Shown here one piece after another: positions 4,032 to 51,763 of a stretch of DNA of 64,000 nucleotides (its first letter is position 1; the number at the start of each line of letters is the position of its first letter). Origin of the DNA: Saprospiraceae bacterium (GTDB taxonomy: Bacteria > Bacteroidota > Bacteroidia > Chitinophagales > Saprospiraceae); NCBI GenBank assembly GCA_026982695.1, contig JALSGS010000007.1, positions 62,001-126,000 of the forward strand. Reading direction: 5' to 3'. The notes under the pieces are model-generated. The model did not search any database. It saw only the letters and a list, made by a program, of their open reading frames with translations, and was not told where the DNA came from. Both the position numbers and the translations under genes were made by a program.

Positions 4032-4250
4032 GATGGATGGGTAGTTGTTGTGTAGCTTGCTACTCATTGACGATACAAATGTGGCCATTACTTTTTCTCG
4101 TTTCAAAGACAAAAAACGGCAATTGTTGAGAAAAAAATAAAGGTTTTTACGTAGTGTGGATGAAATGTTTAATTTCAAGTTGTTGGTTTTTAGATGATTG
4201 TGCGTAATTTGCCGTCGGTGTTGCAATTGAACTTGTTGAACGATCTGCTC

Positions 4251-6630: not shown

Positions 6631-6650
6631 TGGGCTGCTGCGTTAGGTGC

Positions 6651-8090: not shown

Positions 8091-8179
8091 AATTGCTGAA
8101 ATTTGTAGTTGATTAGTAATGCAACAAGTAGGGAACCGGACTCTTGGGGGGACGTATACTCATTACAATTTTCGCTCCA

Positions 8180-8215
8180 AATCAAAAGGCGAATGGGTAC
8201 ATCATCCCATTCGCC
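8180..8215 (-). terminator. Rho-independent terminator of the spt-like gene
   Basis: A perfect 10-bp stem, GGCGAATGGG (8188-8197) with CCCATTCGCC (8206-8215), encloses an 8-nt loop. On the minus strand it is followed by TTTTGATTT and lies 45 bp beyond the stop codon of the gene at 8260-9573. Confidence 0.75.
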
Positions 8216-8259
8216 TAGACCCATAAATGGCTTATCGGTATCGTTACATGATTAGTAGC

Positions 8260-9573
8260 TCATCGTACTTTTGAATCTTTCTTGGGTATGGGCTTTATTT
8301 TGCTGAATGCTTGGTAGATTTCTTCGTACGCAAAATCTTCTTCTTGTAGGGCTTCGTCGATGGATTCTTTTAAGTGGTGGAGCATTTGTTCAATGTCGGC
8401 CAGGGTGTGGTGATTGGTCACGGTGAATCGCAGGCCTGTATTTTTTATCGGCACACTGGGATAAGTGGCAATATTGAGGTAGAACCCTCTGCGATGCATT
8501 TTTTGCACGACTTTGTAGCCCACTTGTGCTTTACTTACGCCAACGAAGAAAATAGGCGTGTGTTCAAATGCCATGAGTGGCAGTTCCAGTTCGCGTGCCA
8601 GTCGGTTGGTCTGTTCGATGCGTTGGTGTAGTCGATCCTGCAGCAAGGGTAGCTCGTCGCTCAAGTGTATGCGAGCAGATTGTACTCCTGCCCCCAACGA
8701 AGGATTGGGTATGGGGCCGGAAAAGAACATCGTACTGCCCGTATTATTGACGAAGTTGCGTAGTTCAATACTGGGAAAAATTAAAATACCCCCATATGAG
8801 CCGAAGCTTTTATGCATCGATCCAGCTACGACCATTTTTTCGTGATGGGGTACTTGAGTTAGTACGACGCCCTTGCCCTTTTCGCCATGCCAGCTCACCC
8901 CGTGGGCATCGTCAATATAGGTATAGAAGTTATCGTATTGGTCGAGCAGTTGCAATATACCATCGGTTGGGAGGGTATCGCCGAACATACTATAAACGCC
9001 ATCGGCACAATACCATATATTTCGATACTGCTTGCACAGTTTCTCAAGACGCCATTCGAGATTTTCCAAGTGGCTATGGCGAATCATTTCCACATGAGTG
9101 CCTGCCGATTTGGCGATGCGCACGGCATTTTGCACGCTGGCGTGCACTTGGTGATCCAAGATGACGGCGTCTTGTACGTCGATTAGAGAAGGAATAGCTG
9201 CGATATGCCCGAGCGTTGTGGTAGGGGCAATAATGAGTGGTAGGTCGAACATTTGCTCGAGCAGGCCCTGCAAGTCTCGATAAAGGGGTGAAGACAAAAA
9301 GGCGCGGGAAGAAGAAAAGGCAGGGCCATACTTTTGGGTAGCTTCAATGGCACCTTGCTTGAGGCGAGGGTCCAGCTCTAAGCCCAAGTAGCTACACGAG
9401 CCAAAGTTTTTGACTTTTTTACCTGCTACTGTGATTTCATTGCCTTTGAGGGCTTCATCTTCTAGTATGAGATAGCCGATGGAGTTGCGTGCGCAGTAGG
9501 TGGCTTCTTTGTGTAAGTCTTGCAATAAGCGTGCGGAGCTGTGCATGGGACCTTGAGGGGTAGTGCTGTCCAT
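8260..9573 (-). CDS. Alpha-oxoamine synthase, serine palmitoyltransferase-like
   Basis: This 437-aa PLP-dependent enzyme belongs to the alpha-oxoamine synthase family (with Spt, KBL and BioF), which joins an amino acid to an acyl thioester with loss of CO2. The Schiff-base lysine is Lys255 in GSMHKSFGSYGG; the cofactor-binding DDAHG lies at 221-225. In Bacteroidota, family members start sphingolipid or sulfonolipid synthesis, so serine or cysteate plus a fatty acyl donor are the likely substrates. Sequence reading alone cannot separate these. It is monocistronic, with its own terminator, and divergent from an Lrp-type regulator gene. Confidence 0.75.
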   Translation of the reverse strand: MDSTTPQGPMHSSARLLQDLHKEATYCARNSIGYLILEDEALKGNEITVAGKKVKNFGSCSYLGLELDPRLKQGAIEATQKYGPAFSSSRAFLSSPLYRDLQGLLEQMFDLPLIIAPTTTLGHIAAIPSLIDVQDAVILDHQVHASVQNAVRIAKSAGTHVEMIRHSHLENLEWRLEKLCKQYRNIWYCADGVYSMFGDTLPTDGILQLLDQYDNFYTYIDDAHGVSWHGEKGKGVVLTQVPHHEKMVVAGSMHKSFGSYGGILIFPSIELRNFVNNTGSTMFFSGPIPNPSLGAGVQSARIHLSDELPLLQDRLHQRIEQTNRLARELELPLMAFEHTPIFFVGVSKAQVGYKVVQKMHRRGFYLNIATYPSVPIKNTGLRFTVTNHHTLADIEQMLHHLKESIDEALQEEDFAYEEIYQAFSKIKPIPKKDSKVR

Positions 9574-10028
9574 AGCGTTTGTGTTTATTGTGCTTGTGAA
9601 AAAAAGTTGTGGGAAAGGATATTAGGTGTGCCGCAGAGGCAAAGAAAACCTACGTGCAGAGGTGCAGTAGGGCGAATCGGTGTGATGCTTGATGGTACAG
9701 TTCAGTACAACCACAGAAGTGGTTGTACTGTATGTCAAAAGTAAAGAAGCATTTTCGTCTGTACAACAGTGATAAAAATATTTTGGCATAACAATATGTG
9801 ATTCAATGTAAATGCAATTTTGAAAAAATCTTGAAATTGTTTTTTCAATTTTTGTACGCAGTATATGCTTGGAAGGTTACAAAGTGATCCAAATTTTATT
9901 ATTTCAAACAAGTAAAACAGGTGTCAAAATAAAATTATAGATGGATGGGATGGGATTTTCTTTTGATATTTTTGGGATCTAAACGTAACTTGTGCCCCGA
10001 TCCGCATTTTATTAAACATGAAAGATTT
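9574..10028. other. Divergent intergenic region, spt-like gene and lrp-like gene
   Basis: A region of 455 bp, very AT-rich in its right half (9780-9950), separates two divergent genes. It contains the strong hairpin or palindrome at 9703-9730 and no open frame with coding character. It probably holds both promoters, but I found no clear TAnnTTTG element. Confidence 0.5.
9703..9730. repeat. 12-bp perfect inverted repeat
   Basis: Arms CAGTACAACCAC (9703-9714) and GTGGTTGTACTG (9719-9730) are perfectly complementary and separated by AGAA. There is no T-run on either side, so a simple terminator is unlikely. It could be a regulator-binding palindrome or an RNA hairpin in the leader of the spt-like gene. 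Confidence 0.7.
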
Positions 10029-10502
10029 ATGTCGGACAAGTTGGACAAGATCGACTTGAAGATTTTGCGCATTCTCCAGGAAAACAGCAAGATCACGAAC
10101 TTGGAATTATCGCGCCGCATAGGGTTGTCTCCAGCGCCTACATTAGAGCGCGTGAAGAAATTGGAAGCCAACAAAGTAATCCTCAGCTACCATGCAGAGG
10201 TTAATCCACAGGCACTTGGCCTCAATGTGATGACCTTTGTATTGGTATCGTTGGCTTGGAAGAAGGAAGATGCGCTCAATCGCTTTTTAGAAAAGATTAA
10301 GACGATTGATGAGATTGTAGAGTGCTATATCATTACGGGAGAGGCTGACTTTTTGATCAAAGTCATTTGCAAGGACATTCCCACCTACGAGCAGTTGTTG
10401 TTCCGCTTGTCGCAAATTGATGAGATTGAGCGGCTCAAGACGTTGATGACTTTATCTACGGTGAAGAATTCCAAGATTCTCCCTTACGACTACGAGTCTT
10501 GA
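10029..10502 (+). CDS. Lrp/AsnC-family transcriptional regulator
   Basis: The product from the ATG at 10029 has 157 aa (MSDKLDKIDLKILRILQENS), the usual Lrp length; the frame is open from 9945 but that extension has no family counterpart. The N-terminal winged helix-turn-helix covers residues 5-55 (LELSRRIGLSPAPTLERVKKL). The C-terminal RAM ligand domain has the EIVECYIITGEADFLIKV motif near residues 95-115. Members bind amino acids and act as global or local regulators. The target is not evident; it may regulate the divergent spt-like gene or itself. The next gene follows after 18 bp. Confidence 0.88.
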   Translation: MSDKLDKIDLKILRILQENSKITNLELSRRIGLSPAPTLERVKKLEANKVILSYHAEVNPQALGLNVMTFVLVSLAWKKEDALNRFLEKIKTIDEIVECYIITGEADFLIKVICKDIPTYEQLLFRLSQIDEIERLKTLMTLSTVKNSKILPYDYES

Positions 10503-10520
10503 TGTAAAGTCGGTGGGCTA

Positions 10521-11342
10521 TTGACTACTAAGCGTGAAAGGCATACATTTCTGTGGAAGATAGAAGGAGCAGGTGAAGCTGCTCCTTCGTTTGTTTTGGG
10601 CACGATGCACTTGCCTGGATTGTCGCTTTTGCCCTGTGCAGCCCGCGTGCGTCAATTGATTGAGCAATGCGAGGTATTGGCCTGTGAGCTCGACTTAAGT
10701 GCGGCATTGCCTGTGCAGCCCTTGTGGCCTGGTATTGTGCAGTGGTCGTTGCGTGCAGCTATGCCAGCAGCTCACTACGAGAAACTACGGCGCATGTTGT
10801 ACAAGGCCTTTGGCGTCGACGTGCGGCAGTTCGATCATGTACCGCCGCTGTGGCTCATGGCGCTTTTATCACGGGTGGCACTGGATTTATCGGGGCGTTC
10901 GCTCGATGAGGAGTTGTGGCAGTTGGCTCAGGATCAGGGGAAAATGGTGATAGGGCTCGAGCAGCTTGAGACACAATGGGCCATTTTGCGTCAAATTCCA
11001 CTGAAACAACAACTGCGTGAATTGAAGCGCATTGCACGTCATCCAGCGGGTTTTCGCAGGCGTTTGCGCAAAAGACGAGCTTTGTATTTGGCAGGTGAGA
11101 TTCAATTGTTATACCGGCTAGTGCGCAAAGAGGCGGGGCGCTCCCGTCATGCCCTGATCGATGAGTACAATAAGCGAATGGCCGCATGCGCTTGGCCACT
11201 TATGCAGGGTAAGTCCGTTTTGATTGCAGTGGGTGCGGCCCATTTGCCCGGACATAATGGCTTGTTGCGCCTGTTTAAGCAGCGAGGGGCACACGTGGTG
11301 CCCTTGCCATGGCATGCGTGCGATATAGGCCCAGATGGCTAA
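10521..11342 (+). CDS. TraB/GumN-family protein
   Basis: The product has 273 aa with the two family motifs: GTMHLPG near residue 29 and AVGAAHLPGHNGL near residue 235. These motifs are shared with TraB/PrgY and Tiki-type proteins, some of which are metal-dependent proteases; no bacterial substrate is established for this branch. No signal peptide is visible, so it may be cytoplasmic. The start is a TTG at 10521, 18 bp after the lrp-like gene, because no ATG fits upstream of the first conserved residues. It is probably cotranscribed with the lrp-like gene. Confidence 0.7.
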   Translation: MTTKRERHTFLWKIEGAGEAAPSFVLGTMHLPGLSLLPCAARVRQLIEQCEVLACELDLSAALPVQPLWPGIVQWSLRAAMPAAHYEKLRRMLYKAFGVDVRQFDHVPPLWLMALLSRVALDLSGRSLDEELWQLAQDQGKMVIGLEQLETQWAILRQIPLKQQLRELKRIARHPAGFRRRLRKRRALYLAGEIQLLYRLVRKEAGRSRHALIDEYNKRMAACAWPLMQGKSVLIAVGAAHLPGHNGLLRLFKQRGAHVVPLPWHACDIGPDG

Positions 11343-35544: not shown

Positions 35545-36258
35545 ATGGCAGCAGCTTTGAAAATGTTGGTTTGGGATGTAGATGGTACGATAGCGGACAC
35601 GGAGCGCTATGGACATCTACCAGCAGCCAACGAGGCGATGGCACAATTAGGACTCGACATCGAATGGAGCTGGGCAGAATTTCGCCGCATGATTGGTACT
35701 ATTCCTGGTAATGCCAACCGTTTGCGCCATGCACTGACCGAACGCGGTATGGGTGCCCGAGATATTGAAGAATACGTCAAGCGTTTTGAACCGCTGAAAA
35801 GAGAGCTGTATATCAACAAGTACTTGTATCGTGTAAAGCTGAGAGCTGGCGTGCGCGCATTGGTCGAGCAAGTGGTAAAGAGTGGCCTTCGGCTAGCTAT
35901 CATTTCTACATCGTATGAGTCGCAGATTGAGGCTTTGCTACAGGCGCTTTTGGCGGAGTTTCGCGAGCATTTTGAATACGTACTGGGTAAAGAGCACGGT
36001 TCGAAGACTAGGAGCAACGGCTTACTGCATCGGATGCTATTGGAGCGTACGGCTCTACTACCAAAAGAATTGATGATGATAGAAGATGCTGCTGACGGGC
36101 TGGAGGCAGCTGTAACCGCCCAAATACCAACGCTTGTGTGCTACAACGACTATACCAAAGGACATGACTTCCGTACCGCCTTGGCGGTAGTTCCTACACT
36201 CGAATCAATGACGCTGGACCAATTATTTACATTTCATCAAACCACTCAACAATTGTAA
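35545..36258 (+). CDS. cbbY: CbbY-like HAD phosphatase (xylulose-1,5-bisphosphate phosphatase)
   Basis: This 237-aa HAD hydrolase is the first gene of the CBB operon, ending 2 bp before cbbL. The catalytic motif [11 protein letters not shown] carries the nucleophile Asp11 and acid Asp13; IISTS is motif II, the Lys of [10 protein letters not shown] motif III, and EDAADGLEA motif IV. The ending YTKGHDF matches the CbbY signature YTxxxDF rather than phosphoglycolate phosphatases. CbbY removes xylulose-1,5-bisphosphate, a misfire product that inhibits RuBisCO. Tight coupling with cbbL fits this role. Activity is inferred from sequence and context. Confidence 0.82.
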
Positions 36259-36260
36259 AC

Positions 36261-37694
36261 ATGGCCAAGAACAATGGAAAAAACACCACGCACTTCGAAG
36301 CCGGTGTGAAAGATTATAGCGCTGCTGGCCGGCATTATTACAGCCCAGGTTATGAGCCCAAGGATACAGAAGTGCTTGCCGCTTTTCGCATTACACCACA
36401 ACCCGGTGTGCCTTTTGAGGAGGCCGCTGCTGCAGTAGCAGCCGAGTCATCTTCAGGTACTTGGACTACTGTGTGGTCGGATCATTTAGTAGATGGTGCT
36501 CGTTATGCGGGGCGAACGTATCACATTGAGACGATTCCCGACCGCGATGATCAGTTTATTGCTTATATCGCTTACCCACTAGATCTGTTTGAGGAAGGCT
36601 CGATGCCCAACTTGATGTCTTCGATTGTAGGTAATGTATTTGGCTTTAAGGCCATTCGTGCTTTGCGCCTTGAAGATCTCCGCATTCCTCCTGTATTGCT
36701 CAAGACCTTTCAGGGGCCGCCGCATGGTATCCAGAGCGAGCGTGACCGCCTCAACAAATACGGGCGTCCTTTTTTGGGAGCTACGATGAAGCCCAAATTA
36801 GGTCTGAGTGGAAAGAACTATGGCCGCGTTGTTTATGAAGCTCTGAAGGGAGGTCTGGACTTTACCAAGGACGACGAAAACATTACCTCACAGCCCTTCA
36901 TGCGCTGGACGGATCGCTATCTGTTCGTTATGGAAGCAGTGAACAAGGCAGAAGCTGAAACTGGTGAGCGCAAAGGACACTACCTCAACGTGACGGCTGG
37001 CGACATGGAAGAGATGTACAAGCGGGCTGAATTTGCTAAGCAGCTGGGCAGTCGTATCATTATGGTAGACTATCTGACGGTGGGCTTCACGGCCTTTGCT
37101 TCGCTATCGAAGTGGTGCCGCGATAATGGTATGTTGTTGCATGCTCACCGTGCCATGCATGCAGTTATTGATCGCCAGCCCAATCACGGCATTCACTGGC
37201 GCGTATTGGCCAAGTGGTGTCGCATCGTAGGTGCCGATCATGTACATAACGGAACGGTTGTCGGCAAGCTCGAAGGCGATCGTGCAGCTACCTTGGGTAC
37301 CAATGATTTGTTGCGCGAAAATTACGTCAAGCGAGATCTGTCTCGAGGTATTTACTTTGATCAAGATTGGGTGAGTATGCCAGCAGTTATGCCTGTGGCA
37401 TCGGGTGGCATCCACGTATGGCACATGCCCGAGCTGGTCAACATCTTTGGCGACGATGTCGTCTTGCAGTTCGGTGGTGGTACGCTGGGGCACCCATGGG
37501 GTAGCGAAGCTGGTGCTACAGCTAACCGCGTTGCACTTGAAGCTTGCATCAAAGCACGCAATGAAGGGCGCGACTTGCTGCGTGAGGGAGGCAACATTTT
37601 GCGCGAAGCGGCCAAGCATTCGCCCGAGCTCGACATGGCACTGCAAACTTGGAAGGAGATCAAGTTTGAGTTCGATACTGTCGATAAGCTTTAA
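36261..37694 (+). CDS. cbbL: RuBisCO form I large subunit
   Basis: The 477-aa subunit carboxylates ribulose-1,5-bisphosphate. Active-site residues are all present: Lys177 in TMKPKLG, carbamylation Lys203 with Asp205 and Glu206 in DFTKDDE, His296 and Arg297 in HAHRAMHA, His329, loop-6 Lys336 in VVGKLEG, Ser381 in SGGIHVWH, and GGGT at 406-409. So it is a true RuBisCO, not a RuBisCO-like protein. The N-terminal half ([20 protein letters not shown]) and end ([12 protein letters not shown]) look green-type; the centre ([47 protein letters not shown]) looks red-type. Residue 330 is Asn where the green type has Ser. It starts 2 bp after cbbY. Confidence 0.97.
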
Positions 37695-37950
37695 TAATGC
37701 AGTGTAAAGAATAAAGTAAAGATCGGATCGGATTTCCTAAATGCCTTGTCTATGCGCGGAGGTAGGTTAGCTACTACTTGATTTCATGGCAAGGCCAAGG
37801 GGGCAGGCAACCTGAAACAGAAATCTTTCAATATCATCAAAAGGATTTGGTTGGTTCGTTTTGGTTTCCTGTTCATCAGCCACGCTCGTCTCAGGACCTG
37901 CCCCTTTTTTCAAAAACCCAACCTCCTTTTGTGTCAAAAAAAAGTGAATT
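37695..37950 (+). other. cbbL-cbbS intergenic region with possible RNA structure
   Basis: A 256-bp noncoding gap separates the two RuBisCO genes, longer than the gaps between most other genes of the operon. GGGGCAGG (37800-37807) is complementary to CCTGCCCC (37897-37904), which is followed by six T residues (37905-37910). This could be a long-range stem acting as partial terminator, processing site or stabiliser. No small open frame of coding character is seen. Confidence 0.45.
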
Positions 37951-38256
37951 ATGTATACCGAAACATTTTCCTATCTGCCTCAGATGACTGAAGAGGAGAT
38001 TCGCAAGCAGGTAGATTACATCATCGAAAAGGGGTATATACCCGGTATTGAATACACTTATAAGCTGGGACCCAAAAACTCTTATTGGAACTTTTGGAAG
38101 CTTCCCTTCTTTGTCGAGCGCAACGCCGACACAGTGATGAATGAGTTGGGAGTTTGCCGGCAAAAGCATCCCAATGCCTGGATCAAGATAACGGGATATG
38201 ACAACAAAAGACAATGCCAGGTACTAGCCTTTGTGGTACATACACCTCAGAACTGA
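37951..38256 (+). CDS. cbbS: RuBisCO form I small subunit
   Basis: The product has 101 aa. The family pattern is clear: ETFSYLPQMTEEEIRKQVDY at the N terminus, YWNFWKLPFF in the middle, and GYDNKRQCQVLAFVVHTP at the end. It lacks the C-terminal beta-hairpin extension of red-type (IC/ID) small subunits and resembles the short green-type form. It should assemble with CbbL in an L8S8 hexadecamer. It lies 256 bp behind cbbL and 267 bp before prk. Confidence 0.95.
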   Translation: MYTETFSYLPQMTEEEIRKQVDYIIEKGYIPGIEYTYKLGPKNSYWNFWKLPFFVERNADTVMNELGVCRQKHPNAWIKITGYDNKRQCQVLAFVVHTPQN

Positions 38257-38523
38257 GACACTACCCAATTGATTTTGCGTGGCTTTGCTTTTTGCTCCAA
38301 AATACCACGTGGACTAATATAGTTGCTCATTCTGCTTTGCCCATTCGGTGTCTGAGCCTCCCCTTAGTGGAGGTCAGGCACATGGGGCGGAAGGTAGAGT
38401 CGTGCGCTGTATCTCACCAAAACAAGTAAAAAGGTAGCATTTCACGTAAACGTAGTTACTGCCCAATAGGCTTGGACTGCCTAGCAAGCAGTCGTATTCT
38501 TTTCGTCCGTCAAATAGAGAACA

Positions 38524-39501
38524 ATGGACAAGAAGTGCATTCTTTTAGGCATCGTTGGTGATAGTGCTACGGGCAAGACTACTCTGACCCGTGGAATTGT
38601 CAATTTGTTAGGGCCCGAAAATGTCACGGCAATTTGTACTGACGACTATCACAAATACAATCGAAAGCAGCGCAAGGAGCTGGGGATTACCGCTTTGCAC
38701 CCAGACTGTAATTACATCGACATCATGGAGCAACATCTGCACGATTTGCGCGCTGGCCGGCCTATTCTCAAACCCAATTACAATCATTCCACGGGTGATT
38801 TCGACCCACCTACTTACATTAAGCCTGCTAGATTCGTCATTGTAGAAGGGTTGTTAGGATATCACACGCGCATTTTACGCGATCAGTTTGACGTCAAAGT
38901 ATATTTGGACCCCCCCGAGTCCTTGCGCCGGCAGTGGAAAGTGCAACGCGATACGAGCAAACGGGGCTATACTCCGGAGCAAGTTTTAGCTGCATTGGAT
39001 GCGCGAGAAGCTGACTCAGAGGCATTTATCCGGCCGCAGAAGAAATATGCCGACATCGTCGTGCGCTTTTACCCCAAGCAAAAGGCAAGTGTCGACGATC
39101 GCCTCAACGCAAAAATAGGACTGAGCCCTACACGGCCCTGTGAACGACTCAGTGCCATCATAGAGCAAATCGCGGATGAGTTCAAAGATTACCCCTGTGA
39201 GCGCAGTAGTGGTACGCCTTGCCTGCACATGTCGTTAGAGAAATGGAATGGGCGGCCCTTTGAGGTGATAGACATACATGGCGAAATTGACGAAAAGCAG
39301 ACAGAGGTGCTGAAGATGCGCCTGGGCAACTTGATTCGCGAACGCAATTTTGACCTCAACTTGGACGAAGTAGGGCTTTTTCAAAAAGGAGACGAAACGC
39401 TCATTTCATATCCTTTGGCTTTGGCCCAGTTGGTCATTTCCTATTTCATGATTAATAGCATGGATGTGCGTATGCGTACCTCGATGGCTACCTCTGCCTG
39501 A
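38524..39501 (+). CDS. prk: Phosphoribulokinase
   Basis: The 325-aa kinase makes ribulose-1,5-bisphosphate from ribulose-5-phosphate and ATP. The P-loop GDSATGKT is at 12-19; TDDYHKYNRKQRKELGITAL (39-58) and KPNYNHSTGDFDPP bind substrate; VIVEGLLGYH follows Walker B. The sequence follows the class II form of cyanobacteria and plants rather than the proteobacterial class I form (shorter, SSGAGTT loop). Light-regulatory cysteines of the plant enzyme at the P-loop are absent. With RuBisCO this enzyme is diagnostic of the Calvin cycle. Confidence 0.95.
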   Translation: MDKKCILLGIVGDSATGKTTLTRGIVNLLGPENVTAICTDDYHKYNRKQRKELGITALHPDCNYIDIMEQHLHDLRAGRPILKPNYNHSTGDFDPPTYIKPARFVIVEGLLGYHTRILRDQFDVKVYLDPPESLRRQWKVQRDTSKRGYTPEQVLAALDAREADSEAFIRPQKKYADIVVRFYPKQKASVDDRLNAKIGLSPTRPCERLSAIIEQIADEFKDYPCERSSGTPCLHMSLEKWNGRPFEVIDIHGEIDEKQTEVLKMRLGNLIRERNFDLNLDEVGLFQKGDETLISYPLALAQLVISYFMINSMDVRMRTSMATSA

Positions 39502-39547: not shown

Positions 39548-41596
39548 ATGGTTCAGATTCAGAACACTCAACCTTCTCAGGCGGTACGCAAGCCGTTTCG
39601 CCAACTCGATGCCGATACGCTTGCCCTTTTGGCCAATACCATTAGAGGTCTGGCCATGGATGCAGTGCAGCAGGCCAATTCAGGCCACCCGGGCATGCCT
39701 ATGGGCATGGCTGATGTAGCTGCCGTGCTTTGGGGAGAATGGCTGCGCCACAACCCTGTCAACCCCGATTGGTTCAATCGCGATCGCTTTGTGTTGTCGG
39801 GGGGGCATGGCAGCATGTTGATCTATAGTTTGCTCCATCTCTTTGGTTACGACTTGCCGCTCGAAGAGCTCAAGCAGTTCAGGCAATGGGGCAGCCGCAC
39901 GCCGGGCCATCCGGAAAACTTTGTGACCAAAGGCGTAGAGACCACTACAGGCCCTTTGGGTCAGGGCATTGCCAATGCCGTAGGTATGGCTATTGCCGAA
40001 CGGCATTTAGCTGCGCGTTACAACTTGCCTCAACTGCCTTTGTGCGATCATTACACCTATGTGTTCGCAGGTGATGGCGACATGGAGGAAGGCATCAGCC
40101 ATGAGGCTTGCTCGTTGGCCGGCCACTTGAGGCTGGGGCGGCTTATCGTTCTGTACGACGACAACAACATCACGATTGATGGTCATACGGACTTATCATT
40201 TAGTGAAGATGTGCGCTTGCGCTTCGAGGCCTATGGCTGGCAGGTGCTTAGCGTCAATGGGCACGACTTTCGGAGTATCCGCCAAGTACTGAAAGCTGCA
40301 CATGCCGATACCCAGCGTCCTACGCTGATAGCTTGCCGCACCGTTATTGGTCAAGGCAGCCCCAACAAAGCCAATACACACGAAGTGCATGGAGCGCCTC
40401 TTGGCGAAGAGGAAGTGGTGTTAGCCAAGCGCAATTTGGGTTTGCCCGAAGAGCAGACTTTTTATGTGCCTAAGTCCATTACTCAAGCCATTACCCAGGA
40501 AGCGCGGGTGTGGGGCAAAAAGTGGGAGCATCAATGGGAAAAAGTTGCCGAACAGGTACAGCACCAGGATCCAGACTTGTGGGCCGAATTTTCTGATAGA
40601 CTCAATGGTGTAGTGCCTGCCCGTGCTTTGGATATACCTGCTATATCGGTAGGTAAACCCATTGCTACGCGTGCAGCTTCCGGTCAGGTACTCAATCATC
40701 TGGCACCTCTTGTACCTCAGCTCATGGGAGGCTCGGCCGATTTGACGCCTTCCAATAACACATTCCCTAAAGGAGAAACTGCTTTTTCTGCCACCAACCC
40801 CACAGGGCGATATATTCACTATGGTGTGCGTGAACATGCCATGGGGGCCATTATGAATGGGATGGCATTACATGGGGGCATTTTGCCTTATGCGGGCACT
40901 TTCTTTGTGTTCACGGACTACATGCGCCCTGCCATGCGAATGGCTGCCCTGATGAAGCTGCCCGTCATCTATGTGCTGACGCACGACAGCATTGGGTTGG
41001 GTGAGGATGGCCCGACTCATCAGCCTGTTGAGCATTTGAGCTCATTGCGTGCCATGCCGCATATGACCGTGATTCGACCGATGGATGCAGCTGAAACAGC
41101 AGTAGCTTGGCGCGTGGCCTTGACTCATAAAGATGGGCCGGTAGCTTTAGTGCTCAGCCGGCAGAAGCTGCCCAATCCCGATCGCCAGGCCGAAGGATTG
41201 GCCCCTGCCAGTGGGCTCGAGCGGGGAGGATACGTGTTATGCGAAGATAAAGGCTTTGATACCATCATTATAGCTACTGGTTCGGAAGTAGCCTTGGCCT
41301 TATCGGCCAAAAAGCAACTCAATGACAAAGGTGTAAACGTGCGCATCGTGTCGATGCCTAGTGTAGAGCTTTTTGAGGCCCAGCCCGAGGAATATCAAGA
41401 ACAAGTGCTACCTACTGCTATTACGCGGAGGGTAGCAGTGGAGGCAGGTGCCACGTTATCGTGGTATCCGTGGGTAGGCTGTAAAGGCAAGATTGTAGGG
41501 TTGGATCGCTTTGGCGCCTCGGCACCTGGTCAAGTCCTATTTGAAAAGCTCGGCCTTACTGCTTCAGCTGTAGTGGAAGCTGTACAGGCGTTATGA
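39548..41596 (+). CDS. tkt: Transketolase
   Basis: The 682-aa thiamine-diphosphate enzyme moves two-carbon units among sugar phosphates. It shows [16 protein letters not shown] near residue 43, [14 protein letters not shown], the ThDP motif [13 protein letters not shown] ending in DDNNITIDG, and in the second half [15 protein letters not shown] and the catalytic PYR-domain region. The length is standard for bacterial single-chain transketolase. Its location between prk and fba indicates a Calvin-cycle role; the cell may have a second copy elsewhere. Confidence 0.96.
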
Positions 41597-41641: not shown

Positions 41642-42604
41642 ATGATTGTCACTACTGCAGACTTGTTCAAAGTAGCTTATGGCAAATTTGCCGTAGGCGC
41701 ATACAATATCAACAACATGGAGCAAGCTTTGGGCTTGTTCGAAGGGCATGCTCGTGCTGAAGCGCCCTTTATCATTCAGATTTCGCGAGGTGCTCGGGCC
41801 TATGCGGGCGTGAAGATGTTGGAGAACATCATTAAGGCTGCCGAAGAGATGTATCCCGAGGCCATCTTTGCCGTTCATCTCGATCACGGCACAGAAGAGG
41901 TGTGCTATGAGTGCATCGACAGTGGTTTTTATAGCTCGGTTATGATCGATGCTTCACATGAGCCTTTTGAAGAAAATATTGCCATCACGCGCAGGGTCGT
42001 GGAGCGCGCGCACGCCAAGGGAGTGAGTGTAGAAGCAGAATTGGGCATGTTAGGGGGTGTAGAAGAAGACATCGAGGTGGATGAAAAGCATGCCATGCTG
42101 ACCGACCCCGACGAGGCTAAAGAATTTGTCACGCGTACGGGTTGTGACTCCTTGGCGGTCGCTATTGGTACCAGTCATGGTGCCTACAAGTTCAAGGGCA
42201 ACCAATCTTTGCATTTTGATCGCATTGCTGCTATCCAGCAGCGATTGCCGGGCTTCCCACTGGTCATGCATGGATCCAGTTCGGTCCCTCCAGAGGAGGT
42301 GCGCCGCATCAATGAGGCTGGTGGAAAATTAGATCCATCTGCACGCGGTGTCGATGCCAATGAGTTTGCCAAAGCAATTCCCTTGGGCGTCACTAAAGTC
42401 AATATTGATACAGATGGTCGCTTGGTATGGATGCGGGTGCATCGCGAGCATTTCCGCGACCATCCTGAAAACTTCGACTTCCGCAAGCCCGGCAAAGTAT
42501 TCATCGACGAGTATGCCAAGTTTATTGAGCACAAATCGGAGAAGCTGCTCAGTAAGGGTAAATTACAGATGGTACGCGAAGCACTTGCCAAACAAGCGGT
42601 GTGA
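41642..42604 (+). CDS. fba: Class II fructose-bisphosphate aldolase
   Basis: The 320-aa zinc-dependent aldolase condenses dihydroxyacetone phosphate with glyceraldehyde-3-phosphate, or with erythrose-4-phosphate to give sedoheptulose-1,7-bisphosphate. Zinc-binding and catalytic residues appear in AVHLDHGTEE, VEAELGMLGGVEED, GTSHGAYKF, HGSSSVPPE and KVNIDTDGRL. It lies 45 bp behind tkt. It is the class found in Calvin-cycle operons of proteobacteria. Confidence 0.96.
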   Translation: MIVTTADLFKVAYGKFAVGAYNINNMEQALGLFEGHARAEAPFIIQISRGARAYAGVKMLENIIKAAEEMYPEAIFAVHLDHGTEEVCYECIDSGFYSSVMIDASHEPFEENIAITRRVVERAHAKGVSVEAELGMLGGVEEDIEVDEKHAMLTDPDEAKEFVTRTGCDSLAVAIGTSHGAYKFKGNQSLHFDRIAAIQQRLPGFPLVMHGSSSVPPEEVRRINEAGGKLDPSARGVDANEFAKAIPLGVTKVNIDTDGRLVWMRVHREHFRDHPENFDFRKPGKVFIDEYAKFIEHKSEKLLSKGKLQMVREALAKQAV

Positions 42605-42711: not shown

Positions 42712-43740
42712 ATGAAAGATCAGGTACAGGTAGCTCAACCAGATAGAAACTTGGCCATGGAACTGGTACGCGTCACAGAAGCTGCAGCCATTTCGGCAGC
42801 TCGCTTTATGGGGCGCGGTGATAAAGACGGCGGAGACCGAGCTGCGGTCAATGCCATGCGCGCCTTTCTGAAGACTGTGGACATGGATGGCGTAGTAGTC
42901 ATCGGTGAAGGCGAAAAGGACGAAGCACCTATGCTTTACAATGGCGAGCGTGTGGGCTCGGGTCGTGGCCCAAAAGTCGATATCGCCGTGGATCCCGTAG
43001 AAGGAACGCGATTGTTGGCCTATGGGCGACCCAACTCCATTGCCGTGATTGGCGCAGCGGAAGCGGGCAGTATGTGGCGGCCAGGAAACTCCTTTTACAT
43101 GGACAAGCTAGTAGTAGAGCCCGCTGCACGTGAGGCCATTGATATCAACGATACGCCTACGCATAACCTTCAGCGTATTGCCGAGGCCTTAGGCCGAAAA
43201 GTGGAAGATCTTACGGTTTTTGTGTTGGACAAGCCTCGCCACCAAGCGCTTATCGCGGAAATTCGGCGGGCAGGTGCGCGCATTACCCTGCATACCGATG
43301 GCGATGTCATGGGTGCCCTTATGGCTGCCATACCAGGTACGGGCGTGGATGTGTTGATGGGTATAGGCGGCACACCTGAAGGTGTGTTGGCTGCTTGTGC
43401 TGTCAAGGCTTTAGGTGGAGGCATGCAGGGCAAACGCGCACCCCAAAAAGACATAGAGAAAGAGCGATTAGCAGCCGATGGGGTCGATTTAGATGAAGTG
43501 CTCACACTCGACGACCTGGTGCGCTCAGATAATACCTTCTTTGCCGCCACAGCCATCACTGAGGGCAGCTTCTTAGAAGGGGTGCGCTTCGATCAAGGGC
43601 GGGGGATCGTCACCACTGAGAGTGTGGTGATCCGCTCGCGATCGGGATCTATGCGCTATATCAAAGGAGTGCATCAGTTCAAGCGAAAATTTGATTTTGA
43701 AAAAATAGACAGAGAGGCCGCTGCCTTGGCTCAGCAGTAA
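42712..43740 (+). CDS. glpX: Class II fructose-1,6/sedoheptulose-1,7-bisphosphatase (GlpX type)
   Basis: The 342-aa metal-dependent phosphatase has GDKDGGDRAAVNAMR near residue 35, VVIGEGEKDEAPML, the catalytic DIAVDPVEGTRLLAYGRPN and GIGGTPEGVLAACA. In cyanobacteria, this type acts on both fructose and sedoheptulose bisphosphates, so one enzyme can serve both Calvin-cycle steps. The operon carries no other bisphosphatase, which supports dual function here, although that needs assay. The gap to fba is 107 bp. Confidence 0.93.
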   Translation: MKDQVQVAQPDRNLAMELVRVTEAAAISAARFMGRGDKDGGDRAAVNAMRAFLKTVDMDGVVVIGEGEKDEAPMLYNGERVGSGRGPKVDIAVDPVEGTRLLAYGRPNSIAVIGAAEAGSMWRPGNSFYMDKLVVEPAAREAIDINDTPTHNLQRIAEALGRKVEDLTVFVLDKPRHQALIAEIRRAGARITLHTDGDVMGALMAAIPGTGVDVLMGIGGTPEGVLAACAVKALGGGMQGKRAPQKDIEKERLAADGVDLDEVLTLDDLVRSDNTFFAATAITEGSFLEGVRFDQGRGIVTTESVVIRSRSGSMRYIKGVHQFKRKFDFEKIDREAAALAQQ

Positions 43741-43778
43741 CCTTGATATGTGGCAGCAGCTTTCGCAAAAAAAGGCTT

Positions 43779-44465
43779 ATGTATCAGATTGCACCTTCGT
43801 TACTTTCCGCCGACTTTGTCAACCTGGAGCGCGACATACGCATGGTGGAGCAAGCCGGAGCCCATATGTTGCACATCGACGTGATGGATGGCCGTTTTGT
43901 GCCCAATATTACCATCGGTGTGCCGGTGGTGCGAGCCATTAAGCGCGTGGCGACTACGCCTTGCGATGTGCACCTGATGATTGTAGAGCCAGAAAAATTT
44001 ATAGATGCTTTTTGCAATGCGGGGGCCGACATTCTCACTGTTCATGTGGAAGCCACGCCCCACGTCCATCGCGCCCTGCAAGCCATTCGCCAAAGAGGCG
44101 TCAAAGCGGGCCTTGCACTCAATCCACACACACCGCTGTCGGTGCTCGACGAGCTATGGAGTGATGTCGATCTCATTCTCATCATGTCGGTCAATCCAGG
44201 ATTTGGCGGTCAGGCTTTTATTGAGCAGACACTTGACAAACTGCAGCGCCTGCGGCAAATGCTCGAGTCAAGGGGCTTAGCCGATAAAGTGATGGTAGAA
44301 GTAGATGGAGGTGTGAAACTCGACAACATCGATCAGGTTGCTGCAGCGGGTGCCAACGTATTGGTTTCTGGATCGGGTATATTCAAAGCAGCGCATCCGC
44401 CGCAGATGATTCGCGATATGAACGACAAGCTCAAGGCACTACATCCATCGCAAGCGGTGCCTTGA
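43779..44465 (+). CDS. rpe: Ribulose-phosphate 3-epimerase
   Basis: The 228-aa TIM-barrel enzyme converts xylulose-5-phosphate to ribulose-5-phosphate, feeding PRK. I take the ATG at 43779 (MYQIAPSLLSADFVNLE), the family's universal start, over the TTG at 43743. Metal-binding and catalytic residues lie in HIDVMDGRFVPNITIG, CDVHLMI, MSVNPGFGGQ and EVDGGVKLDN. It is the last gene of the CBB operon, followed by a terminator. Confidence 0.96.
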   Translation: MYQIAPSLLSADFVNLERDIRMVEQAGAHMLHIDVMDGRFVPNITIGVPVVRAIKRVATTPCDVHLMIVEPEKFIDAFCNAGADILTVHVEATPHVHRALQAIRQRGVKAGLALNPHTPLSVLDELWSDVDLILIMSVNPGFGGQAFIEQTLDKLQRLRQMLESRGLADKVMVEVDGGVKLDNIDQVAAAGANVLVSGSGIFKAAHPPQMIRDMNDKLKALHPSQAVP

Positions 44466-44775: not shown

Positions 44776-45432
44776 TTAGTTGGCGACAGGAGCTAATTGG
44801 AGCACCTCGCGCAAATCGTCAATTACCCAGTCCGCGCCAGCTTGGCGCAACAGCTTGGCAGGTCGATAGCCATAAGTGACGGCGCAAGTATGAATGCCTG
44901 CTGCATGTCCGGCTTCGATGTCGTGAGTCGAATCACCGATGATGATGGCGTGTTGGGGAGACACGTTGAGTTGCTCGAGAATGAGCTTGATAGCATCTGG
45001 AGCTGGCTTGAGGCGATAGCGTTCGGGTTGTGCGCCCAACACGATATCGAAGTAAGGTGCCAAACCCAATGCCTTGATAATGCCTTTTGTGAAATCGTGG
45101 TGCTTGTTGGAACACACAGCCTTATGGGCCCACGAGAGTGCTTCGAGCACTTCGACTACGCCTTCGTAAGGCCGCGTTTTACGCGTGTAGTGCTTGTGAT
45201 AGTAGGCGTCGAAGTGGCGTCTGGATTGTGCCACTAGTTGGGGATCGTCGGTGCACAACACGCGCTCCAGCAGCCGTGTAATACCTTCACCCAGTAGGGC
45301 TGGCATTTGGCTAATGTCGATCAGGGGGCGCCCCAGTTGGCTGAGGGCATGATTGACGGCATCGCACAGGTCATATTGCGAATTGACTAGTGTGCCGTCC
45401 AGGTCGAAAATGTACAGCTCAAAGTTCTTCAT
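44776..45432 (-). CDS. gph: Phosphoglycolate phosphatase, HAD family
   Basis: The 218-aa enzyme starts at 45432 (MKNFELYIFDLDGTLVNSQY), inside the end of the sigma-54 regulator gene (14-bp overlap). Asp10 and Asp12 in FDLDGTL are the catalytic pair; VCSNKHHDF, the Lys of YRLKPAPDA and GDSTHDIEAGHAAG are the other HAD motifs. Phosphoglycolate is formed when RuBisCO reacts with oxygen, so a gph beside a Calvin operon suggests a photorespiratory salvage role, although some phosphatases of this type act on other small substrates. It converges on rpe. Confidence 0.83.
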   Translation of the reverse strand: MKNFELYIFDLDGTLVNSQYDLCDAVNHALSQLGRPLIDISQMPALLGEGITRLLERVLCTDDPQLVAQSRRHFDAYYHKHYTRKTRPYEGVVEVLEALSWAHKAVCSNKHHDFTKGIIKALGLAPYFDIVLGAQPERYRLKPAPDAIKLILEQLNVSPQHAIIIGDSTHDIEAGHAAGIHTCAVTYGYRPAKLLRQAGADWVIDDLREVLQLAPVAN

Positions 45433-46795
45433 ACGTACTTTTATTAATTTGATGTTTTTCCATAAGCCGATAAAAAGATCGACGTGGCATGCGTGCCATG
45501 CGCGCCGCTTTGCTGATATTGCCTTTTGCTTCGCGTAGATAGTACTGGATGGCCTGCACTTCAAACTGGGCCAACACGCGCTCGCGCGCCGGTATGAGCC
45601 CTTTGTCCAGCTGCCAGCTGTGTTGCTTGCTTTGCAAGTTGTGGGGTAAGTGTTCGGGCTCGATTTGGGTGCCTTTGCACAAGATCACAGCCCGTTCGAT
45701 GATGCTCTGTAACTCGCGCAAATTGCCCGGATAGTCGTACTGCATAAGGCATGATATGGCTGCCTGACTAATGGATCCCACCTTTTTGTTGATGCGCATT
45801 TCTGCCTGCTTGAGAAAGTGATAGGCCAATAGTGGTAAGTCTTCTTTTCTTTCGCGTAGGGGGGGCAAGTGAATGACAAAAGAGTTGAGCCGGTAGTACA
45901 AGTCGGCTCGGAACTTTTCTTCTTTGATCATCTGTTCCAGATTGCGATTGGTGGCAGCGATGATGCGGGCGCGCACAGTACGCGTCTCTGTACTGCCTAC
46001 AGGTCGGATTTCGCCAAACTGTAGAAAGCGCAGCATTTTTACTTGCATCTCGGGGGTGATGTCGCCAATTTCATCTAAGAAAATCGTGCCGCCATCGCCT
46101 TTTTCCAGAAGGCCTGGCTTGTCTTTTACCGCGCCAGTAAAGGCTCCCTTTTTGTAGCCAAACAGTTCGCTTTCCAGTAGATGGGGTGCAAAGGCAGTAC
46201 AGTTGATTTTGAGAAAGGGCTTGTGCTTAAGGTGACTCAGCTGCTGAATAGTGCGGGCAATCATTTCTTTGCCCGTACCCGTCTCGCCTGTGATCAAGAC
46301 TGTGGCTGGTGTGGGGGCCACCTGCAAGATCATTTCGCGAACTTCTTGCATTACGGGGTTGTGCCCAAAGATGAGTTCTTCGCCACTTTCTTTGTGCAAT
46401 GACGCTTTGAGAGTGGCTACCTCTTCTTGCAACGACTCATTGGTGCGGTAGGCCTCGATGAGTGCCCAGACAAATTTGGCGGCAGCCCCACCAATCATAC
46501 GCGTGTTGGGGTGTTTGATATGCTGGAGGTGGCGTCGGACGTTTTCGTTACCCGTCACGTCGATGAGGATGTCGATATGGCGATCGGGATGGCGCAGAAA
46601 GTTTTCCGCTTTCTTGGCAGTGGGAATACCTAATTTGCGCGCTAAGCGCATGCCCGGTGCATCGGGGTTGATATCTACTACCCCGAGAATGTGGGTGGAT
46701 GGGTCGCGATGGAGAATCTCCAGCAGGGCGGTACCGCCCTTGCCGGCCCCCACAATGATTACTGTGGTAGGCGGTCGTTCTTTTGTGCTTTCCAT
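45419..46795 (-). CDS. Sigma-54-dependent activator with N-terminal Rossmann domain
   Basis: The 458-aa protein has three parts. Residues 10-118 form a Rossmann-type domain with a dinucleotide loop (VIIVGAGKGGTALLEIL) and VVDINPDAPG after the second strand, as in NAD(P)-binding sensor domains. Residues 140-370 are an AAA+ sigma-54 interaction domain: Walker A GETGTGKE (170-177), GAFTGA (217-222), Walker B TIFLDE (237-242). A Fis-type helix-turn-helix closes it (GNISKAARMARMPRRSFYRL). GAFTGA shows it can remodel sigma-54 polymerase. It is followed by gph in overlap and faces the CBB operon; redox control of carbon fixation is a plausible inference. Confidence 0.9.
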   Translation of the reverse strand: MESTKERPPTTVIIVGAGKGGTALLEILHRDPSTHILGVVDINPDAPGMRLARKLGIPTAKKAENFLRHPDRHIDILIDVTGNENVRRHLQHIKHPNTRMIGGAAAKFVWALIEAYRTNESLQEEVATLKASLHKESGEELIFGHNPVMQEVREMILQVAPTPATVLITGETGTGKEMIARTIQQLSHLKHKPFLKINCTAFAPHLLESELFGYKKGAFTGAVKDKPGLLEKGDGGTIFLDEIGDITPEMQVKMLRFLQFGEIRPVGSTETRTVRARIIAATNRNLEQMIKEEKFRADLYYRLNSFVIHLPPLRERKEDLPLLAYHFLKQAEMRINKKVGSISQAAISCLMQYDYPGNLRELQSIIERAVILCKGTQIEPEHLPHNLQSKQHSWQLDKGLIPARERVLAQFEVQAIQYYLREAKGNISKAARMARMPRRSFYRLMEKHQINKSTYEEL

Positions 46796-48970: not shown

Positions 48971-51574
48971 TTAAAATTTTATAGAAATGCCGGCCAACAG
49001 GTTTCTGGGCGCCTGTGGATAATAACCGGTCAGATTATACTGATTATCGCGTTCCAAGCGCGCATAGGGGTTGTCTGCTCGTGCATCGTAATCGGCAGAA
49101 ATGTAACGGTATACCCAGCCATTCGTTACGTACAAATTGTCAAATAAATTGCGGACAGCCAATGTTATGGCCACCTGCATGCCGTTTTGCGTTGGCCACT
49201 CATAGCGTGCGTTCAGGTCGCTATAGGTATAAGGATCGATGGTAGCAACTTCATTGGAGGTGTTGTCCAGATATTGCTTGCCTACATATTTGGTAGCCAA
49301 ACTCAATGTGAGTTGTTTGTCAGAGGCTTGTTCATGAGCTTTGGGCCATGCTTGCCAACTCAATATGGCGTGGCCGATGAGTGCTGGTGAAAAGGCTAGA
49401 TCGGTATTTTGATGGACGACCACTTCCTGTTGGCCTGTGTCCCAGTTGTCGATGTACTCGACAAAGGTTTTGACCTTGTTGCGGCTGGCTGTGAGGGATG
49501 CATCTAAGCGCCATCGTTGAGCCAATTGAGCACCGCCATTGAGCTCGATACCTACGCGATAAGATTGTGGTATATTGACCCGGGTGAGCTCTCCTACGTC
49601 GTTGATCTGGCCAGTGAGCGCCAATTGGTCTTTGTAATACATGTAATACCCATTGATGGCAAAGGCGAATTGTTGTGCCTGCCGGCGCCATCCGATTTCC
49701 ACATTGTAGAGGCGTTCGGGACGAGGGCGACTTTGCGGCGAAGATTCAGTGTAGTCGTTGCGATTGGGTTCGCGGTTGGCTACAGCAAAGGAAGCATATG
49801 CATGCGTATGGGAATCGAGCTCCCATGTGAGGCCTACTTTGGGGTTGAAAAAGCCAAGCTGTACTTGCTGCGGTACATTTTGCCCTTGGGCATTGAAACC
49901 CAAAAATTTATAGCTAATAGTCCGATACTGAAAATCTACGTAGGCATGTAGTTTCCACGTCAGGTCATAGTCCAATTTGACAAATGTGTTCCAATCGGTT
50001 TTCGTGGCGTCGTTGTCGTAATAACGGTGTCCTTTTTCGGCTGAACTCATAGTGCGTGCCCAGATCACCTCGCCAAAGTGCGCACCTTGATATTGATTCC
50101 ATGCTCCGCCCCAAATGGCTTGCAGGCGTTTGCCATTTTGTGTGTAGTGTATATTCCAGATACCACCATAGAAATGATTGTCTAGCCAGCGTCGGCGGAT
50201 CAAATCGGTGCGATCGATAATGTAGCGCGCTTCCCATACAGAGTCTTGGCTTGCTGGATCCGTCGTAAGCGACGTATAGACTGATAGTCCTGGGGCTTGG
50301 AGGAAGTTGGCAATTTGTTGGGCATCGGCATCGAGGGGCCACAAGCGCGTGTGCAGCACTATGGGTGTGAGGCCGTAGTTGCTGAAAGGCTCATCGGCTT
50401 TATACTGCTCGTAAAAGCCAAAGCCTCGGGTATAGTGCATGGCCAAGTTGAGATCCCAATTGCGGTTGAGTGCCTGTGAGTAGTGGAGTTGCAGGTGGGT
50501 TTGCGTGTAGTTGTCCACTTCTTGGTCGTAGGGAGTACCTGCTTTTTCTGTACCAGCACTGTTGTATCGGCGCAAGTCTGGATCGTCGATGTATTGTACA
50601 GGTACTCCATTCCATGCTTGATAAGTGATCTCATGCCCTGAAAAGGCCGTGAGGCGCAATGTACTTTGGTCAGTGATGCGCGCAGCCGATAAGTAGAATG
50701 ATTTGAGGTTGGCAGAAGCTCGTTCGATATATCCATCAGATTGGATGGCCGACAGTCGCCCTTCCACGATGTAGCGGTCGTGGATCAGTCCCGTGCCAAA
50801 GCGCACGTTGCCGCGCAAAGTGCTATAGGAACCAGCACCTAAATTGAGTTGGCCATATGATTCTTTTTCCAGCTTTAGGGTGTTGAGGTTGATGGTGGCG
50901 CCAAAGGCGCCTGCACCGTTAGTGGATGTGCCTACCCCACGTTGTATTTGGATGTTGTCTGTAGAGCTGGCAAAATCAGGCAGGTCTACCCAATACACTC
51001 CTTGCGATTCGGCATCGTTGAGTGGAATGCCATTGATGGTCACATTGATACGCGTCGGATCGGCACCTCGTATCCACATGCCCGTGTAGCCGATACCTGT
51101 GCCTGCATCGGAAGTGACTACTGCAGAGGGTGTCCACTGCAGCAGAAAGGGCACATCGACACCGAGGTTGTGTGCTTCGAGTTGCTCGCGCTGCAAATTG
51201 ACATAGGTGAACGGTGCATGAGTGCCGGCACGCGTGCCCTTTACCACCAGCTCCTCGAGTTCAAAGGTGCGGCGCTGCATCTGAATGTGGACCATGGCTC
51301 GACCTACGTGTTCGGGGATACGCGTTTGGGCCCATTCGTCCTCGTATCCCACAAATGAAGCGCGAAGGCGATAAGCGCCTGGGGGTACATCCGTAAATCG
51401 AAACTTTCCTTGTGCATCAGTAGCTGTAGCTTCATCGAGTTCGATCACCACTACGTGTGCAGCAGGGAGTGGTTGGCCTTGCTCATCGAGTACGCGCCCT
51501 GTCAGTTCGGCTTGGGCCAAAAGCGACAAGCCTGCCCAGATGAGCATAGCCGTCATGCATACAGACTTGTACAT
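48971..51574 (-). CDS. TonB-dependent receptor, probably for thiamin
   Basis: The 867-aa receptor starts at 51574 (MYKSVCMTAMLIWAGLSLLA), the signal peptide; the N-terminal carboxypeptidase-regulatory-like domain (ELTGRVLDEQGQPLPAAHVV) precedes a plug (MWIRGADPTRINVTINGIP) and a beta-barrel ending in LLAGISIKF. A TPP riboswitch is directly upstream, and in Bacteroidota such receptors import thiamin or its derivatives. Ligand choice is therefore inferred from regulation, not from the barrel. No cytoplasmic-membrane thiamin transporter follows. Confidence 0.85.
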   Translation of the reverse strand: MYKSVCMTAMLIWAGLSLLAQAELTGRVLDEQGQPLPAAHVVVIELDEATATDAQGKFRFTDVPPGAYRLRASFVGYEDEWAQTRIPEHVGRAMVHIQMQRRTFELEELVVKGTRAGTHAPFTYVNLQREQLEAHNLGVDVPFLLQWTPSAVVTSDAGTGIGYTGMWIRGADPTRINVTINGIPLNDAESQGVYWVDLPDFASSTDNIQIQRGVGTSTNGAGAFGATINLNTLKLEKESYGQLNLGAGSYSTLRGNVRFGTGLIHDRYIVEGRLSAIQSDGYIERASANLKSFYLSAARITDQSTLRLTAFSGHEITYQAWNGVPVQYIDDPDLRRYNSAGTEKAGTPYDQEVDNYTQTHLQLHYSQALNRNWDLNLAMHYTRGFGFYEQYKADEPFSNYGLTPIVLHTRLWPLDADAQQIANFLQAPGLSVYTSLTTDPASQDSVWEARYIIDRTDLIRRRWLDNHFYGGIWNIHYTQNGKRLQAIWGGAWNQYQGAHFGEVIWARTMSSAEKGHRYYDNDATKTDWNTFVKLDYDLTWKLHAYVDFQYRTISYKFLGFNAQGQNVPQQVQLGFFNPKVGLTWELDSHTHAYASFAVANREPNRNDYTESSPQSRPRPERLYNVEIGWRRQAQQFAFAINGYYMYYKDQLALTGQINDVGELTRVNIPQSYRVGIELNGGAQLAQRWRLDASLTASRNKVKTFVEYIDNWDTGQQEVVVHQNTDLAFSPALIGHAILSWQAWPKAHEQASDKQLTLSLATKYVGKQYLDNTSNEVATIDPYTYSDLNARYEWPTQNGMQVAITLAVRNLFDNLYVTNGWVYRYISADYDARADNPYARLERDNQYNLTGYYPQAPRNLLAGISIKF

Positions 51575-51679
51575 AAGTGGGAAAAGTTGAAAAGGTGAAA
51601 CAATACGCACTCCCAGGGGCTAGGAGGCGCTTTGCCACCATCCAGATAGCTACTTCGGAGATGTATTGGCTACCTGGTC

Positions 51680-51756
51680 CTCATTCCCTTCCCGGCATTA
51701 CCCGGGCAGGTTCAAAGGGTGTTCTCTCAGCCGCCGATAGGCAGCACCCCTATGAG
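51680..51756 (-). ncRNA. TPP riboswitch (THI element)
   Basis: Read on the minus strand, P1 arms CTCAT (51756-51752) and ATGAG (51684-51680) enclose GGGGTGCTGCC, GGCTGAGA, ACCCTTTGAACCTG and TAATGCCGGGAAGGGAA: the conserved core of the thiamin-pyrophosphate riboswitch, in order and spacing. Downstream, CTCC...GGAG near the start can form a stem that may occlude translation when TPP is bound. It controls the TonB receptor gene. Confidence 0.93.
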
Positions 51757-51763
51757 ATTGTTG

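Follow-up and report, generated by a model that had tools for sequence, protein, structure and literature searches.

The window, by which the whole analysed stretch of 64,000 nucleotides is meant, lies on a contig (JALSGS010000007.1) of a Saprospiraceae bacterium genome of 3.84 Mb, with a listed completeness of 100% and a listed contamination of 0%. It carries an eight-gene Calvin operon on one strand, in which genes for a HAD phosphatase, the large and small subunits of RuBisCO (cbbL and cbbS), phosphoribulokinase (PRK), transketolase, aldolase, GlpX and an epimerase follow one another, and beyond which two further genes lie on the opposite strand:

35545..36258 (+): HAD-family phosphatase, directly 5' of cbbL (HAD_2, 58.5 bits)
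36261..37694 (+): cbbL, form I RuBisCO large subunit, 477 aa; Ala295, Trp313 and Asn330 equal spinach positions 293, 311 and 328
37951..38256 (+): cbbS, RuBisCO small subunit, 101 aa, short (Pfam RuBisCO_small, PF00101, 125 bits; alignment with green and red small subunits)
38524..39501 (+): PRK, 325 aa (PF00485; NF005655, 370 bits, cut-off 236)
39548..41596 (+): transketolase (Pfam)
41642..42604 (+): class II fructose-bisphosphate aldolase (Pfam; 86% identity to the aldolase of Chloroflexota locus L003)
42712..43740 (+): GlpX-type fructose-1,6-bisphosphatase (Pfam)
43743..44465 (+): ribulose-phosphate 3-epimerase (Pfam)
44776..45564 (-): HAD-family phosphatase, phosphoglycolate-phosphatase-like (best such model 174 bits, under its cut-off of 225)
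45419..46795 (-): sigma-54-type transcription activator with a Rossmann-like N-terminal part (Pfam/NCBIfam scan; homologue near cbb genes in three other Saprospiraceae contigs)

An earlier, sequence-only reading had placed cbbL at 36261-37694 on the forward strand, and these coordinates are exact, enclosing one open frame of 477 aa. The product belongs to form I by its large-subunit match (PF00016, 452 bits), by its agreement with spinach at 20 of 20 checked positions that we take to be catalytic, and by the adjacent small subunit gene (PF00101, 125 bits), which begins 256 bp 3' of cbbL. Since RuBisCO and PRK are both encoded, the operon is assigned to the Calvin cycle; the enzyme is predicted to assemble as L8S8 and to act as a carboxylase, and would fix CO2 using ribulose bisphosphate supplied by the neighbouring PRK. 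The intervals between cbbL and cbbS (37695-37950, 256 bp) and between cbbS and PRK (38257-38523, 267 bp) are long; in L002 and L162, two shorter Saprospiraceae contigs, a few to some tens of bases separate the same open frames.

The HAD phosphatase directly before cbbL reached the cut-off of none of the 17 listed NCBIfam families; it may be a sugar-bisphosphate phosphatase of the CbbY kind. A Pfam scan of 30 window proteins gave no LysR-type CbbR, and the sigma-54 activator at 45419-46795 (-) may regulate the cbb operon instead. A scan for sigma-54 promoters gave 405 near-matches (up to three mismatches), spread throughout the window, from which no promoter is called. As regards activases, the window genome had no match to CbbQ_C and matched CbbX only below the cut-off, which was exceeded in one of eight genomes (G1119).

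Position of the large subunit in the form I tree

From 159 extracted large-subunit-like frames, those of less than 45% identity, those shorter than 400 aa and identical duplicates were excluded; the remaining 117, together with one typed reference, gave 118 aligned large subunits, on which the residue and motif counts below are based. Sixty-two of these entered the main tree, and a second tree of 58 rows was obtained by removing seven, among them two of the three long outgroup rows, and adding three plasmid anchors for Thermaceae, IE (Mycobacterium) and IC (Cupriavidus). In the main tree the window sequence, its genus-mate G828, three further Saprospiraceae (G880, G1117 and L002) and four Chloroflexota MAGs (L003, L004, L005, titled Anaerolineales, and L123; 75-77% identity to the window CbbL) group at 100/99. 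Next to join these nine are L008 and L124, also Chloroflexota (98/88), and then L031, a Dormibacterota MAG (97/86), completing a 12-member clade supported at 97/86 in the main tree and at 99/86 in the second. Monophyly of the Saprospiraceae members is weak (97/62 and 93/60) and is missing from a tree of the N-terminal part.

The sequence-only reading had suggested that cbbL stands for a separate or deep form I lineage, and this finds support in the whole-protein trees, in which the 12-member clade is sister to IA+IB (92/87 and 95/83). That reading had set against it a firm placement inside IA/IB or IC/ID, and none was found: in the main and second trees, respectively, the red clade forms without the window clade at 100/100 and 100/99, and IA+IB does so at 100/99 in both, with the window sequence nested in neither. 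An account of the window CbbL as merely a divergent IA or IB member draws on its best solved-structure matches, namely 7qsw, which we take to be a reconstructed ancestor, followed by entries that are presumably green-type, and on approximately unbiased (AU) tests in which forcing the Saprospiraceae and the four Chloroflexota with IB (p = 0.117) or with IA (p = 0.107) was not formally rejected. Forms IA and IB also resemble the window enzyme in their short small subunit, and IA does so in its C-terminal motif, in addition to their being its sister group in the best whole-protein trees. They nevertheless exclude it at 100/99, the forced joins cost 29-31 log units, and Trp311 and Asn328, where IA and IB carry Phe and Ser/Thr, occur in none of 74 IA and IB sequences; we therefore regard this account as improbable.

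Placement of the whole clade on the red side instead, as sister of IC/ID/IE/Thermus, is more of a contender, although still unlikely. Holding the clade with the red forms costs only 1.26 log units and is not rejected (AU p = 0.485), the deep order is open in the N-part tree, and another deep clade, form I-Anaero, has been placed on the red side, with positional instability (accessible text of PMC12999727). Against this stand the green-side support in the whole-protein trees cited above and in a C-part tree (96/88), an excess of green over red states (30 vs 6) at 49 diagnostic sites, and a 101-aa small subunit that, in alignment with green and red small subunits, is free of the red-type C-terminal extension, together with the absence of an above-cut-off CbbX in the window genome. 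Given the AU result for the red side and the open N-part order, the safe statement is that the window RuBisCO is a deep branch near the green/red split, the green side being the more likely one. A constraint holding only the Saprospiraceae with red was rejected (AU p = 0.014); it also detaches them from the Chloroflexota.

The small subunit gene adjoins the large one in all 12 clade members, which separates the clade from two kinds of form I enzyme described without one. Form I' (6ura), which presumably has the same form I fold and catalytic residues, shares 57% identity with the window CbbL and sits on a long branch outside all small-subunit-bearing rows; no small-subunit match was found within about 1.5 kb on either side of the I' row (L147) or of the distant rows L148 and L149, so that the window CbbL, having a small subunit and not grouping with 6ura, falls outside I'. 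Form I-Anaero has been described as a deep form I clade of unstable tree position (Schulz et al., 2022, via the accessible text of PMC12999727) that is devoid of rbcS, a description that is not fully clear, as PMC12999727 also makes a comparison with an RbcS tree; by this description the window clade, with rbcS adjacent in 12 of 12, is set apart.

Two other rows merit mention in this context. A Chloroflexota form I-like large subunit (L125/L180; G690:C1:2375001-2395000, CbbL at about 9199-10623, minus strand) is sister to the red forms and has PRK and transketolase genes nearby, but 20 kb around it yielded no match to a small subunit (best E 0.21); it is a candidate form I-Anaero member that fits the published description better than the window clade does. 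L009, from a MAG titled Thermaerobacter, encodes a large subunit (3920-5350) together with a small subunit. In the whole-protein trees and the C-part tree it lies below every other row that has a small subunit (91/82, 97/57 and 96/85), though in the N-part tree it stands beside IA+IB.

Mixed motifs and marker residues

The sequence-only reading had described the protein as having green ends and a red core, and had offered a recombinant gene as one explanation. All strings quoted in its support were located in CbbL, but by mean match across the 118 aligned sequences the description is only partly right. Of the green ends, the C-terminal dozen residues are IA-like (0.95, vs 0.24 for red), and PLDLFEEGS is greener as well (IB 0.99, vs red 0.82). 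The red core fared less well. Only one of the two 18-residue strings leans red, and weakly so (0.85, vs 0.77 for IA and 0.78 for IB); the other matches IA (0.80) and red (0.78) about equally, one 11-residue string is equal in IA, IB and red (0.85-0.89), and the other is likewise similar in all three (0.89-0.99).

A recombinant of green-type and red-type large subunits could be argued from these mixed motifs, from the red lean of residues 181-198, from a C-terminal dozen identical to the IA consensus, unlike that of the Chloroflexota relatives (0.42), and from an identity profile in which the window sequence is nearer to Chloroflexota up to about residue 311 and beyond that as near or nearer to IA/IB. 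Nevertheless, trees of the N part (residues 12-311) and the C part (312-477) keep the same nine Saprospiraceae and Chloroflexota rows together (100/100 and 99/89), and the C-part tree recovers the 12-member clade (90/81), still as sister to IA+IB, despite the IA-like end. In the N-part tree the 12-member clade is not recovered, L031 and L008/L124 falling into an open fork, and the window sequence and G828 sit weakly with Chloroflexota (81/25), away from the other Saprospiraceae. Of the 49 sites that discriminate between IA+IB and red, the window sequence is green at 30, red at 6 and in some other state at 13, and its green and red sites show no positional clustering (runs test, P = 0.20). Its red states also recur in Chloroflexota (all six in L005, three of six in L003 and three of six in L008), and L005, which served as a control, also diverges over this C-terminal stretch. 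Recombination was thus rejected on the N and C trees, the runs test and the identity profile, and is regarded as very improbable; judging from the aligned sequences, the mixed residues are largely states common to the relatives of the window enzyme.

Two residues had been singled out as unusual, Asn330, beside His329 (spinach His327), and Ala295. Each is indeed found in none of the 100 IA, IB and red sequences, yet neither is peculiar to this gene: because Asn330 is clade-wide (12 of 12) and Ala295 occurs in nine of 12 members, both are lineage features rather than oddities of the window sequence. Position 330 is occupied elsewhere by Ser (6) or Thr (4) in IA, by Thr (43), Ser (19) or Ala (2) in IB, and by Ala (24) or Ser (2) in red. 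Trp at position 313 is equally constant in the clade (12 of 12), vs Phe in 100 of 100 IA, IB and red rows; Asn330 and Trp313 together therefore mark the 12-member clade. At position 295, Ala is shared by the five Saprospiraceae and Chloroflexota L003, L004, L005 and L123, and the remaining members carry Leu (L008 and L124) or Cys (L031); outside the clade, IA has Ile or Val, IB has Ile and red has Leu or Met, and Ala recurs in the two distant rows L148 and L149. The four Chloroflexota hence share the full Ala293/Trp311/Asn328 set (spinach numbering), as well as the adjacent small subunit, with the window enzyme.

An AlphaFold model of CbbL (mean pLDDT 77.5, with values below 50 in loops 298-305 and 333-338), used for secondary structure only, places residue 295 in a strand (292-296), residue 313 at the start of a helix (313-323) and residue 330 in a further strand (327-331); the corresponding spinach positions 293, 311 and 328 sit on barrel strand 5, helix 5 and strand 6, respectively. 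As His296 and His329 presumably face the active site, their strand neighbours should face the helix layer, which makes a packing cluster plausible. Asn328 and Trp311, joined by Ala293 in the nearest relatives, may accordingly have changed as a co-adapted set in the packing behind His294 and His327. In plants, site 328 has been found to be under differential C3/C4 selection (accessible text of PMC5809049).

Spread of the operon and a putative hydrogen supply

Close form I RuBisCO is rare in the phylum. In a draw of 395 Bacteroidota genomes it was found in the window genome alone, the other 121 matching genomes showing 24-36% identity, and draws at the order and family levels gave three of 396 and three of 150 genomes, respectively. 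A family draw around the genome of L002 gave five of 198, of which four are of the window type (85-95% identity) and one, G1119 (L156 and L164), lies at 60%. The RuBisCO of G1119 is of the red IC type with CbbX beside it, which points to an independent acquisition. Its locus (L164, G1119:C84:1-19200; CbbL at 6098-7579) constitutes a second Calvin operon in the family, in a genome that also has a group 2a hydrogenase.

The gene order of the whole operon is kept in the genus-mate G828 (L160), and shorter contigs preserve part of it, with cbbL, cbbS, PRK, transketolase, aldolase and GlpX in L162, the same series up to the aldolase in L002, and up to transketolase in L163; a sigma-54 activator lies near the cbb genes in L160, L162 and L163. 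This recurrence bears on a more trivial explanation, in which the operon is a Chloroflexota contig contaminating the assembly, as might be suspected from the closest non-Saprospiraceae relatives of CbbL in the tree being Chloroflexota. Contamination is exceedingly improbable: the cbb genes keep their order in four further Saprospiraceae assemblies, three of which also have the sigma-54 gene alongside (the contig of the fourth being only 6 kb), the window itself encodes a TonB receptor and a protein with a T9SS sorting tail, GC content is 51.0% in the operon vs 50.4% in the window, and the contamination figure is 0.

Unlike the window, the Chloroflexota loci L003, L005 and L165 (the last from the L123 genome) have their aldolase and GlpX genes 5' of cbbL. 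The window PRK has 44-56% identity to those of six Chloroflexota loci, vs 86% for the aldolase and that of L003, so that the window operon does not simply duplicate any single Chloroflexota operon known. The direction of transfer is inferred from the rarity of the enzyme in Bacteroidota and the wider spread of its clade among Chloroflexota; a few Saprospiraceae would thus have gained RuBisCO within a Calvin operon from, or shared it with, Chloroflexota. In viral contigs, two stretches matched a pattern, and neither was a relative.

A possible source of energy is encoded on another contig of the window genome, where a single frame matches the [NiFe] hydrogenase large subunit family. Over nearly its whole length it scores 692 bits to 7uus/8dqv, vs no more than 198.5 for any other listed chain; 7uus and 7utd/8dqv we take to be Huc, the group 2a [NiFe] hydrogenase of Mycobacterium, and the frame is accordingly assigned to group 2a. 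Genes for a maturation protease, HypB, HypF and HypD lie beside it, and, as a difference from Huc, two successive small-subunit-like frames (below cut-off) precede the one large subunit (L169, G000:C14:72001-92000, 7306-9569). Twenty of 150 family genomes had a close homologue, namely all three with form I RuBisCO and 17 of the 147 without it (hypergeometric P = 0.002, a value that ignores kinship, two of the three RuBisCO genomes sharing a genus); the RuBisCO and hydrogenase draws comprised the same genome handles where listed. The hydrogenase was also found in all five other RuBisCO-bearing Saprospiraceae checked, including G1117, G395 and G1119, with that of G880 split over two contigs. Of six Chloroflexota-side genomes, five had no group 2a match and one had a weak match (34%); among the L003, L004, L005 and L123 genomes, three of the four were checked, two having no group 2a match and one the weak match (34%, two stops).

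It follows as a proposal that the Huc-like hydrogenase would supply electrons and ATP by oxidising H2 aerobically, and that H2 probably powers CO2 fixation in this lineage. Relatives are mostly known as heterotrophs, which counts toward a different role for the RuBisCO, as an electron sink or a means of carbon salvage in a heterotroph rather than a basis of autotrophic growth. In the same direction, chemoorganoheterotrophy has been predicted for marine Bacteroidota that carry group 2a hydrogenase (accessible text of PMC10305171). That the operon joins RuBisCO with genes for PRK, transketolase, aldolase, bisphosphatase and epimerase argues otherwise, and the heterotrophic role is considered unlikely; these sequences are best read as a Calvin cycle that was acquired laterally in Bacteroidota and is powered by hydrogen.

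The cbbL gene is, then, intact and situated in an operon, groups with Saprospiraceae and Chloroflexota homologues, is rare in its phylum, shows no sign of recombination between forms and shares its genome with a hydrogenase gene. Taken together, we consider it quite probable that the locus encodes an L8S8 form I RuBisCO of a distinct small-subunit-bearing clade near the green/red split, most likely the sister of IA+IB, which was acquired with its Calvin operon and is probably powered by H2. A broader proposal, to which we give somewhat less than even weight, is that the 12 sequences constitute a third main small-subunit-bearing form I lineage, neither green nor red and marked by Trp311 and Asn328, and that Bacteroidota gained the Calvin cycle at least twice (with this enzyme and with the IC type), each time in lineages already oxidising H2 with group 2a hydrogenase.

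The clade is little-described. The accessible text of a 2025 kinetic survey names seven bacterial phyla as form I sources, with Bacteroidota absent (PMC12663927), and no report of form I RuBisCO in Bacteroidota was found in the accessible portions of the open-licence literature (PMC9802188, PMC12663927, PMC10972752, PMC5809049, PMC9561532, PMC12999727, PMC10305171 and PMC13019369), nor, in open-licence literature, anything combining Saprospiraceae, hydrogenase, carbon fixation and RuBisCO, a scope that makes for weak evidence of novelty. As the point of the green/red split and the earliest small-subunit-bearing enzymes are an open question, a living clade near that split, with a short small subunit and, near active-site histidines, two residues (Trp311 and Asn328) that are absent from all sampled IA, IB and red sequences, provides enzymes to measure. 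The locus also extends the range of form I Calvin operons to Bacteroidota, here complete and with a plausible hydrogen supply, in a host group known mainly for living on organic matter. Elsewhere in the window, a TPP riboswitch (51668-51761, minus strand) lies just 5' of a TonB-dependent receptor gene (48971-51610), an arrangement that suggests thiamine uptake.
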